Origin: Bacteroidota bacterium
GTDB lineage: Bacteria > Bacteroidota > Ignavibacteria > Ignavibacteriales > Melioribacteraceae
Assembly (NCBI GenBank): GCA_018818165.1
Contig: JAHISP010000039.1
Coordinates: 1-64,000 of the forward strand
Length of the DNA: 64,000 bases
Direction of reading: 5' to 3'
The translations under genes were made by a program, and so were the position numbers. Shown one piece after another: positions 31,461 through 33,552 of this stretch. Every line of letters begins with the position of its first letter. Positions within the stretch are counted from its first letter, which is position 1. Below the pieces are notes generated by a model, which saw only the letters and a list, made by a program, of their open reading frames with translations, did not search any database and was not told the DNA's origin.

Positions 31461-32675
31461 ATGAATAGAAAAATGACTGGTGGACCTGGATCAATCCAGA
31501 TAAAAGTAATCCTTCTTGTTTTTGCAACAATTATTGCGCTTGCTACCTTTATATATACACAAACATTAATTTCACAACTTGAAGCTCGCGAAAAAAAAGT
31601 TGCTGAATTATTTGCGTCTAGTTTACAACAAGTTGCTGAATTAGATGCTTCAGATAAAGATTTCACTTTTCTACTTGATGTAATTAAACGAATAGATTTT
31701 CCGTTAATTTTAGCAGATTCAAGTGATAACGTTTCATTAAATGGAATGACTGGAGGAATTAGAAATCTGGATATTGATTCAACTTTAACTGACACTCAAA
31801 AAGTTGCATTTATTAAAGATAAAATAGCTGAGTTTAGTGAGATTAACAATCCAATATTTGTGTATATCCAAGATAGTATTGTCCTAAGTAAAATTTATTT
31901 TGGCGACTCTGTTCTAATTACGCAATTGAGATATTACCCTTATTTACAAATAATTTTTGCAATGATGTTTGTAATTATTGCTTACTTTAGCTTTAGTTAT
32001 CTTAAAAAGAATGAACAGAGTAATATATGGGTTGGTATGGCAAAAGAAACTGCTCACCAATTGGGTACACCAATTTCAAGTTTATTGGGTTGGAACGAAA
32101 TATTAAAAATAAACAAACAGAACCCAGACAAAGTTGAAGATATAACATTAGAAATGAGCAATGATTTACAAAGACTAAACAAAATTGCTGATAGATTTTC
32201 GAAAATTGGCTCTATTCCAAAATTAGTTCCAGCAAATATTACAGAAGTTATTCAATCAGTTATTGAGTACTTTAATAGACGCTTGCCAATTTCTAGCAAA
32301 AAAACTGAACTTAAAATTATAAATGCTACCAATATATTAATTCCTCTAAATAGGTCTCTCTTTGAATGGGTTATTGAAAATTTGATTAAAAACGCACTTG
32401 ATGCCATAGAGTCTAAAAATGGATTGATTACTTTTGAAATTATTGAAGAAGCAAATAATGTAATTATTGATGTTTCTGACAATGGAAAAGGAATAGACCT
32501 TAAAAACAGAAAAGATGTTTTCAGACCTGGTTATAGTACCAAAAAACGTGGTTGGGGTCTTGGACTTTCACTAGTTAAACGAATTGTTGAAGATTACCAT
32601 AAGGGAAAAATATATGTTAAAAGTTCAGTAATAGATGAAGGTACAATTTTTCAGATAATTTTAAAAAAATCGTAA
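31461..32675 (+). CDS. Orphan membrane sensor histidine kinase
   Basis: A 404-residue kinase. One helix (about 14-36) and a second (about 158-178) enclose a periplasmic domain of about 120 residues; no HAMP or PAS domain is evident. The H box is AKETAHQLGTPISSLLGW, with the phospho-acceptor His in a variant HQLGTP context. The ATPase part has the N box NLIKNALDAI, G1 DNGKGID, F box FRPGYSTKKRGWG and G2 GLGLSLVKRI. No response regulator gene is adjacent, so the partner lies elsewhere. The transcript probably ends before the RNA units that follow. Confidence 0.92.
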   Translation: MNRKMTGGPGSIQIKVILLVFATIIALATFIYTQTLISQLEAREKKVAELFASSLQQVAELDASDKDFTFLLDVIKRIDFPLILADSSDNVSLNGMTGGIRNLDIDSTLTDTQKVAFIKDKIAEFSEINNPIFVYIQDSIVLSKIYFGDSVLITQLRYYPYLQIIFAMMFVIIAYFSFSYLKKNEQSNIWVGMAKETAHQLGTPISSLLGWNEILKINKQNPDKVEDITLEMSNDLQRLNKIADRFSKIGSIPKLVPANITEVIQSVIEYFNRRLPISSKKTELKIINATNILIPLNRSLFEWVIENLIKNALDAIESKNGLITFEIIEEANNVIIDVSDNGKGIDLKNRKDVFRPGYSTKKRGWGLGLSLVKRIVEDYHKGKIYVKSSVIDEGTIFQIILKKS

Positions 32676-32690
32676 AAAGTATTTTTTTTC

Positions 32691-32719
32691 TTGCATATAT
32701 TTTTTCGGTTAACTAATAT
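32691..32719 (+). promoter_or_regulatory. Sigma-70-like promoter in front of the tandem RNA units
   Basis: TTGCAT (32691-32696) and TAATAT (32714-32719) are separated by exactly 17 bp. Transcription would begin near 32726, about 30 bases before the first unit. The match is to the general bacterial consensus, not the Bacteroidota one, so use in this host is uncertain. Confidence 0.5.
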
Positions 32720-32756
32720 TACAGCACAAATTTTAGTTCTTAATTATTATTGAAAA

Positions 32757-32844
32757 GTTTATAGCGGAAAGGTCTAGTACCTTTTTGTTATACAAATCAG
32801 GCTACTAAGGTTGTGCCCTCTACCTTGGTAGCCTTCCCTCTTTT
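32757..32844 (+). ncRNA. Structured RNA-like unit, copy 1 of a tandem pair
   Basis: An 88-base unit repeated at 32871-32958 with 85 identical positions. Stem A is AAAGGT (32768-32773) with ACCTTT (32779-32784) and loop CTAGT. A small TTGT/ACAA hairpin (32785-32795) follows. Stem B is GGCTACTAAGG (32800-32810) with CCTTGGTAGCC (32823-32833), 11 pairs including one G-U, with loop TTGTGCCCTCTA. A TTCCCTCTTTT tail ends the unit. There is no reading frame. Strand is inferred from the promoter, the T-rich tail and the downstream gene. It could be a cis-regulator of the dCMP deaminase gene or a free small RNA; I recognise no known family. Confidence 0.6.
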
Positions 32845-32870
32845 TAATAATTTTTGTACATATATTGTAA

Positions 32871-32958
32871 GTTTATAGCAAAAAGGTCTAGTATCTTTTT
32901 GTTATACAAATCAGGCTACTAAGGTTGTGCCCTCTACCTTGGTAGCCTTCCCTCTTTT
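32871..32958 (+). ncRNA. Structured RNA-like unit, copy 2 of a tandem pair
   Basis: Same unit as 32757-32844, offset by 114 bp, with a dissimilar 26-base spacer between them. Only three bases differ. One (C to T at 32894) falls in stem A and turns a G-C pair into G-U, so pairing is kept; the other two are just outside the stem. Stem B and its 12-base loop are identical in both copies. The dCMP deaminase gene starts 84 bases further on, after a small perfect palindrome TTGAC-T-GTCAA (33009-33019). Confidence 0.6.
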
Positions 32959-33042
32959 AAAGCATAGTTTTGCCAAATTTTATTCAAATTATTTTAATAA
33001 TAACTATATTGACTGTCAATATTTAATATTTTGAGATAATTA

Positions 33043-33552
33043 ATGTCAGAGAAAAATAAAAGACCAAGCTGGGATGAGTATTTTTTAAAAGTTGCGATGC
33101 TTGTTTCCGAACGTGCAACATGTCCTCGTATGCATGTTGGTTGTGTATTAGTAAAGGATAAGCAAATATTAGCAACAGGTTATAACGGTTCAATTCCTGG
33201 TGATGCACATTGTGAAGATGATGGCTGCATTATTGTTGATAACCATTGTGTACGAACAAACCACGCAGAAATAAATGCAATAACTCAATGTGCTAATCAC
33301 GGCGTTAATACTTCGGGTGCAAAAGCATATGTTACAAATATGCCATGTACGACTTGTTCAAAAGCACTAATTGCCGCTGGAATTAAAGAAATTATTGTTT
33401 TTTCGGACTATCATAATACGCTTGCTACAGAATTTTTCAAAAAAGCCGATGTTACCATTAGAAAGCTTCCTATGCCAAATGGTGAAATTCAATATAATTT
33501 GGATAGTTATTCATCTGCCAAGAAAATTAATTTTGATGAGGAAAACAGATAA
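33043..33552 (+). CDS. comEB: Deoxycytidylate (dCMP) deaminase
   Basis: A 169-residue zinc enzyme converting dCMP to dUMP for dTMP synthesis. The catalytic zinc site is NHAEINAI (His and catalytic Glu) plus MPCTTCSKAL (two Cys). The N-terminal RATCPRMHVGCVLVKD and GYNGSIPGDAHCED match the ComEB/dCMP deaminase family. The length is normal. It is preceded by the two tandem RNA units and followed at 43 bp by the polyphosphate kinase gene, with no terminator between them. Confidence 0.95.
   Translation: MSEKNKRPSWDEYFLKVAMLVSERATCPRMHVGCVLVKDKQILATGYNGSIPGDAHCEDDGCIIVDNHCVRTNHAEINAITQCANHGVNTSGAKAYVTNMPCTTCSKALIAAGIKEIIVFSDYHNTLATEFFKKADVTIRKLPMPNGEIQYNLDSYSSAKKINFDEENR

Follow-up and report, generated by a model that had tools for sequence, protein, structure and literature searches.

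The tandem pair of structured units that lies between a sensor histidine kinase gene and a dCMP deaminase gene in a genome of the Melioribacteraceae (order Ignavibacteriales) is, as judged from its sequence, almost certainly a small RNA (sRNA) gene. The array is probably the duplicated gene of a trans-acting, C-rich sRNA of a sigma-54-controlled family, whose members in one genus have multiplied and passed to sigma-70-type promoters. Comparative analysis establishes a family of such sRNAs with predicted promoters of their own and terminator-like hairpins, linked to sigma-54 in most of the members found in the order. In their common form, a predicted sigma-54 promoter lies downstream of a kinase gene, CCCUCC(UUU) is left unpaired, the loop of a hairpin holds GCCCUC, and the RNA ends in a U-rich tail. 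In the genus represented by the window (the whole stretch of 64,000 nucleotides that was analyzed), the predicted promoters are of the sigma-70 type, two or three copies stand in tandem at the kinase/deaminase locus, others lie scattered with promoters of their own, and a plain hairpin takes the place of the 5′ CCCUCC segment. The form seen in this genus would be the derived state because its distribution is narrow, and the family appears to record a natural change between sigma-54 and sigma-70-type promoters together with gene multiplication.

Twin units, copies, and promoters in the genus

The two units (32757-32844 and 32871-32958) are each 88 bases long, recur with a period of 114 across a 26-base spacer, and differ at 3 positions, an arrangement that a sequence-only reading of this DNA had described and that holds on inspection. 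RNAfold gives -35.0 kcal/mol for 32755-32846 (z = -5.55) and -33.1 kcal/mol for 32869-32959 (z = -6.54), with 0 of 200 dinucleotide shuffles as good in either case. Although that reading was right to take the units as structured, its inventory of hairpins requires revision. What it listed as a 6-bp hairpin and a separate TTGT/ACAA hairpin is really one 14-bp 5′ hairpin with the loop CUAGU, and its 11-bp stem with a 12-base loop is really a 3′ hairpin of 13 pairs with a 10-nt loop, UGUGCCCUCU, followed in each unit by UUCCCUCUUUU.

On the forward strand, the 5′ hairpin of unit 1 spans 32760-32792 (from RNAfold and covariation), its 3′ hairpin 32799-32834 with the loop at 32812-32821, and its terminator-like pyrimidine/U tail 32835-32844. 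The corresponding elements of unit 2 lie at 32874-32906 (from RNAfold), 32913-32948 with the loop at 32926-32935, and 32949-32958. Both 3′ hairpins are drawn from folding and covariation, and both tails were read directly from the letters. A simple terminator scan made no call at the tail of unit 1; a pyrimidine-rich tail is also found in the aligned units. The minimum-energy fold places one extra isolated pair inside the 10-nt loop of the 3′ hairpin of unit 1. All 3 differences between the units fall within the 14-bp stem, two exchanging G-U for A-U and one G-C for G-U. Pairing is retained, as the earlier reading had observed for what it counted as a single change inside a stem.

No Rfam family reaches its gathering cut-off in the window, in agreement with the previous failure to recognize one, and ARAGORN found nothing there. 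At a low threshold, Rfam gives six matches around the array (E values between 0.59 and 5), every one well short of its curated cut-off, and a search over 40 homologue loci gave no match at the RNA, returning only 5 tRNA matches. Each unit would yield an RNA of about 90-100 nt, consisting of the 5′ hairpin and the terminator-like 3′ hairpin with an accessible GCCCUC loop.

The window's genome holds seven copies, namely the pair and five solitary copies on four other contigs, and a search of 58 relatives added 14 further copies in four other species of the genus, for a genus total of 21. The loop AGGTTGTGCCCTCTACCT occurs in 21 of 21 copies, and the loop together with its closing pairs, AGGUUGUGCCCUCUACCU, is identical in all of them, with a variable outer stem; these are copies found by similarity, so that ones with changed loops could be missed. 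In public records, the exact loop pattern occurs in nine stretches, which belong to Ignavibacteriales and Melioribacteraceae MAGs. An array of 2-3 units stands just before the dCMP deaminase gene in all five species of the genus, with 2 units in the window and 3, 2, 2, and 2 in G001, G002, G003, and G004, respectively. In the latter four, the deaminase gene comes next and a polyphosphate kinase gene follows further on; the upstream neighbor is a histidine kinase in G002, G003, and G004 and an EamA-type transporter frame in G001, all of these frames being named by similarity to those of the window and by eye. Solitary copies carry 5′ hairpins of other types, with GAAA or GCAA loops, and an unchanged 3′ loop. 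One such copy in the window's genome (L007, on contig C24) adjoins reading frames that by eye resemble transposase fragments.

A sigma-70-like promoter with 17-bp spacing had been proposed upstream of the array, and it was located as TTGCAT-N17-TAATAT at 32691-32719 (forward strand). In 5/5 species, TTGCAT-N17/18-TA recurs 99-101 nt before the linker of the first unit, each array having this single site, ahead of its first unit; a simple consensus promoter scan did not list the site of the window. Among the solitary genus copies, TTGAC[AT]-N17-TAxxT lies 55-59 nt upstream of the linker in 10 of 10, against 0 of 230 control windows. The sigma-54 site and the 5′ CCCUCC segment are both missing in the genus (16 of the 21 units were checked for the promoter). 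On a looser sigma-54 score, 2 of 16 genus units pass, both of them lacking the GG of the -24 element.

An RNA family linked to sigma-54 and a kinase locus

Paired changes in aligned sequences indicate that the RNA structure is under selection both in the units and in their relatives. For the 3′ hairpin, a set of 23 units (17 distinct) from 7 genomes, made up of 21 genus units and one each from G006 and G015, has changes on both sides in 8 of 13 pairs and 96.8% of cells paired, whereas slid controls reach 19.5-57.9%. The 5′ hairpin of the arrays (11 units) has 4 of 14 pairs changed on both sides and 96.8% paired, against 41.5-67.2% in slid controls; on one of five measures, that of further pair types, it does not rise above shuffles (417/500). 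Among 28 distinct relatives from outside the genus, double changes occur in 10 of 12 pairs, 95.5% are paired (slid controls, 25.3-49.4%), and the closing pairs of the 3′ loop are variable. The homologues with covarying stems that were looked for in relatives were thus found, and they extend across the order.

Their distribution was mapped with a covariance model, R2, built from 29 sequences, none of them from the window's genus; it recovers the window units at 4.1e-9 and 5.4e-8. At E <= 1e-3, R2 matches 80 of 391 genomes of the class, which a tally by hand divides into 73 of 91 in the order and 7 of 300 elsewhere, the seven comprising six in family f13 and one weak match. Within the family of the window, 40 of 47 genomes are matched. 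In a sample of the phylum that by listing includes 40 genomes of the order, 38 of 395 are matched at E <= 1e-4, all of them in the order and 0 among the 355 others. The matches of R2 fall in 93 places, 10 in the genus and 83 outside it (78 genomes), with one copy per genome in most matched genomes outside the genus. A preceding model, R1, also caught ordinary terminator hairpins at E <= 0.1, so that its tallies of 46/79 and 87/164 do not measure true membership; in the window's genome, two additional weak matches to R1 were rejected as ordinary terminator hairpins. What emerges is a single RNA family, supported by covariance, that has a class of promoter, a partner in synteny, and motifs open to testing, with a model match in 73 of the 91 order genomes sampled.

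Outside the genus, the common form has a CCCUCC-rich segment, a homologous hairpin with GCCCUC in its loop, and a pyrimidine-rich tail, and R1 matches in other genera repeatedly show a sigma-54 -24/-12 site that precedes the hairpin by 50-80 nt. With the strict pattern [TC]GG[CT]A[CTG]-N5-TTG, a site lies no more than 100 nt upstream in 65 of the 83 extra-genus R2 places and is absent at 18. For 57 of these 83 places there are controls: 44 sites were observed against 0.11 expected from a Markov model; the background was 1/57 on the reverse strand, 1/57 downstream, and 13/2438 in other windows of the same loci. The looser score finds a site in 29 of 37 loci of a first, overlapping set. When these sets are joined (87 loci, 57 plus 30 from the first set), the strict pattern falls within 130 nt at 71, from which 69 distinct transcripts are predicted, 77-165 nt long with a median of 92. 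A -24/-12 site a short way upstream of a short terminated RNA, as in a sigma-54-dependent sRNA, is the arrangement at most places outside the genus (65 of 83) and not in the window's genus. The rpoN gene is present in 72 of 75 family genomes, that of the window included, and the window's genome has 28 matches to the sigma-54 activator domain, 23 of them strong, in a search that also gave matches in all 14 control genomes.

The syntenic partner is a sensor histidine kinase of 404 aa (Pfam HATPase_c), encoded in the window at 31461-32675 on the forward strand, whose C-terminal half resembles the AtoS, PnpS, ZraS, and PrsK models, all far below their equivalog cut-offs. A kinase orthologue lies upstream on the same strand at 60 of the 83 extra-genus R2 places (45 within 500 nt, 15 at 1.07-1.44 kb) and in another orientation at none; at the other 23 it is not within the retrieved stretch. 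The corresponding counts are 40 of 57 in the control subset and 25 of 37 in the first locus set. It is plausible that the RNA is controlled by this neighboring kinase: a signal would engage a sigma-54 activator, perhaps one served by the kinase, and the RNA would then be made. A candidate activator site is offered by a GGTAA-N3-TTACC-like dyad, whose best match falls 70-77 nt upstream of the -24 element at 13 of 43 loci (1.6 expected if uniform) and which scores at least 8 of 10 at 19 of 43 loci against 5 of 43 control stretches; the motif was picked after inspection, and these counts are a lead only. Individual dyads lie 72-75 nt upstream of -24 at L133, L135, L142-L144, L147, L160, L162, L165, L169, L178, and L188.

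Eighteen of the 91 order genomes have no R2 match, and 17 of them hold the kinase at E <= 1e-60. The stretch downstream of the kinase was scanned in 16 R2-negative genomes, a partial match in G054 being left out, and it contains diverged sigma-54-linked copies that are clear in 3 and degenerate in 2. In G055, G056, and G117, two sigma-54 sites stand in tandem 1.1-1.4 kb past the kinase, and a C-rich segment and a hairpin come after each of them (the second of G055 is incomplete at the end of the stretch); G122 and G123 have one site with a degenerate C-motif, and G110 has one weak site without a C-motif. No sigma-54 site was found downstream of the kinase in ten of the 16, where three contigs end within 1.1 kb. 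The kinase locus therefore predicts the RNA in some genomes where R2 fails.

Several variants of the arrangement were seen along the way. In family f3 (L162, L197, L200, L203), the genomes G149, G055, G056, and G117 hold two diverged tandem sRNAs downstream of the kinase, with a sigma-54 site per copy, and such pairs suggest that array formation may have taken place more than once. The RNA of family f13 (L148, L149, L158, L159, L173, L181) is longer, with several C-rich repeats (ACCCUUA, GCCCUCC), and in G200 and G209 of this family a second paralogue, with ACCUCCUU, lies about 1.07 kb past the kinase. In a second genus (g26), G029 has four copies (L041, L083, L084, L085) without a strict sigma-54 site, of which L083 adjoins the kinase and has a 5′ hairpin like that of the window; this may be a state akin to the multiplied form.

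Strong hairpins with U-rich tails just past the kinase stop, together with several scattered copies, are also what would be expected of a doubled intrinsic terminator of the kinase gene or of a mobile palindromic repeat. Such an origin is very unlikely in view of promoters at fixed spacing, a second covarying hairpin, a locus found across the order, and the predominance of single copies in matched genomes outside the genus. The sequence-only reading had named many scattered genomic copies as the mark of a mobile repeat; there are indeed seven, which fits in part, but they have their own promoters and covarying stems and therefore behave as genes. Likewise, REP-like elements are scattered without a conserved locus or promoter, whereas a shared kinase locus and conserved promoters are found here. 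Another suggestion of that reading, twin small RNAs, is supported by the promoter-like sites, covarying hairpins, terminator-like tails, and homologues across the order.

Candidate pairing motifs and comparable small RNAs

The unpaired CCCUCC and GCCCUC segments are complementary to GGAGGG and GAGGGC, the type of sequence found at ribosome-binding sites, and the unpaired CCCUCC(UUU) segment copies the anti-Shine-Dalgarno (anti-SD) core. In 64 predicted transcripts (five of the 69 were excluded because the motif was unrecognized or too late), mean accessibility is 0.92 for the first C-motif, CCCUCC, and 0.95 for the second, GCCCUC; with flanks shuffled, the first has an accessibility of 0.79. 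An SD-like 4-mer stands ahead of 16 of 40 window genes and 1 of 40 at a control offset; Shine-Dalgarno use is reported as rare in Flavobacterium johnsoniae, a Bacteroidia (PMC8710568). Pairing of the C-rich segments with SD sequences is plausible. They would bind the G-rich ribosome-binding sites of target mRNAs and block translation, a silencing that would run without Hfq, which was found in none of 39 genomes (the window's genome and relatives). Feedback on the kinase mRNA was considered and is not supported, an SD-like motif being present in just 7 of 45 kinase genes.

The main rival to pairing is a decoy of the CsrB type, in which the conserved loop would titrate an RNA-binding protein and extra copies would supply more binding sites. 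The loop and closing pairs (AGGUUGUGCCCUCUACCU), invariant across the 21 genus copies against a changing outer stem, and the multiplication of the RNA in the genus would suit a decoy, as would the target search: the exact complement of the 10-nt loop occurs at 7 non-sRNA sites in 5 genomes, of which none is immediately ahead of a start codon and the closest precedes a possible ATG in G001 by about 30 nt. That this search yielded no target also weighs against the pairing reading. However, the closing pairs vary outside the genus, the other conserved segment is the unpaired CCCUCC, a pairing motif, and no candidate protein is known, so that a decoy is unlikely and an RNA that pairs with its targets is the preferred reading.

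Unpaired C-rich motifs, often present several times, also mark the C-rich-loop sRNAs CcsR (Rhodobacter), LhrC (Listeria), and RsaE/RoxS (Firmicutes), where they are held to pair with SD sequences. These sRNAs differ from the present family in sequence, promoter, and lineage, homology having been compared through Rfam alone. Among sigma-54-dependent sRNAs, Pxr is controlled by sigma-54, and Qrr works with Hfq, whereas Hfq was not found here (0/39). Qrr of Vibrio is likewise an sRNA behind a sigma-54 promoter (PMC10162802), and Pxr is an sRNA of Myxococcus (PMC5684412). Likely control by a kinase and activator, and sometimes several copies, are shared with Qrr and Pxr; unlike them, the RNA here has no Rfam match.

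Closest in logic among published cases is NfeR1, one of the alpha-r14 ("cuckoo") sRNAs of Alphaproteobacteria, which carries the ultraconserved anti-SD motif CCUCCUCCC unpaired, is Hfq-independent, and silences ntrB (PMC10746234). Anti-SD motifs in unpaired regions with differing stem sequences are common to both, and the Hfq-independence of NfeR1 and its link to the kinase NtrB are paralleled by the lack of a detected Hfq and by the kinase locus here. However, NfeR1 has three hairpins, the motif CCUCCUCCC, and an RpoD promoter, whereas the present RNA has two domains with CCCUCC and GCCCUC and belongs to another phylum; the alpha-r14 signature of CCUCCUCCC in the unpaired regions of three hairpins is not found. 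Moreover, NfeR1 silences ntrB, whereas an SD-like site is rare at the kinase gene here (7/45). A search of open-license PMC literature found no report on a regulatory RNA of this kind in Ignavibacteriales.

A broader proposal, to be held only tentatively, is that a sigma-54 two-component circuit has in this family an RNA arm that spans the order. The kinase would act through an NtrC-type activator, bound some 70-75 nt ahead of the -24 element, to switch on an Hfq-independent anti-SD RNA. In a lineage with SD sequences at just part of its genes, this RNA would silence the SD-bearing genes as a class, and one genus would have cut its copies loose from sigma-54 and multiplied them. The family also offers a chance to study C-rich sRNAs where Hfq was not found and SD-like sequences occur in just part of the genes.

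The dCMP deaminase gene

The gene downstream of the array (33043-33552, forward strand) had been taken for a dCMP deaminase, and Pfam supports its identity as a dCMP/cytidine deaminase; it is ComEB-like, scoring 185 against the ComEB model, whose cut-off is 219.45, and is a neighbor rather than a part of the RNA. The association of array and deaminase gene in all five species of the genus is what would favor a cis-acting leader of a dCMP deaminase operon, and a double riboswitch or attenuator for dCMP/dTMP supply had been suggested. Such a role is extremely improbable. Of the 37 extra-genus loci in the first set, just 8 have dCMP deaminase as their first downstream gene, and 12 have a first downstream ORF on the opposite strand; among the genes that follow at other loci are 3-dehydroquinate synthase, an amidohydrolase, and a ferredoxin reductase-like gene. 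The window's genome holds five further copies at other loci, both units of the array end in a terminator-like tail, and no Rfam riboswitch matches.

The converse arrangement also occurs, with six family genomes that lack an R2 match (G008, G016, G019, G021, G058, G060) having the deaminase gene close behind the kinase and no sigma-54 site found downstream of the kinase. The deaminase gene thus stays where the RNA is absent. A riboswitch would be expected to keep a stable link to one same-strand downstream gene, and no such link is seen; as far as sequence alone can tell, a promoter and terminator of its own and no fixed downstream gene are instead the features of a trans-acting sRNA.

Between the array and the deaminase gene, the leader at 32984-33035 contains an inverted repeat, TCAAA...TTTGA, that by eye seems to be kept in the genus and is possibly a separate leader element or operator. 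In G001, the deaminase leader has CCAAG...CTTGG at this repeat.
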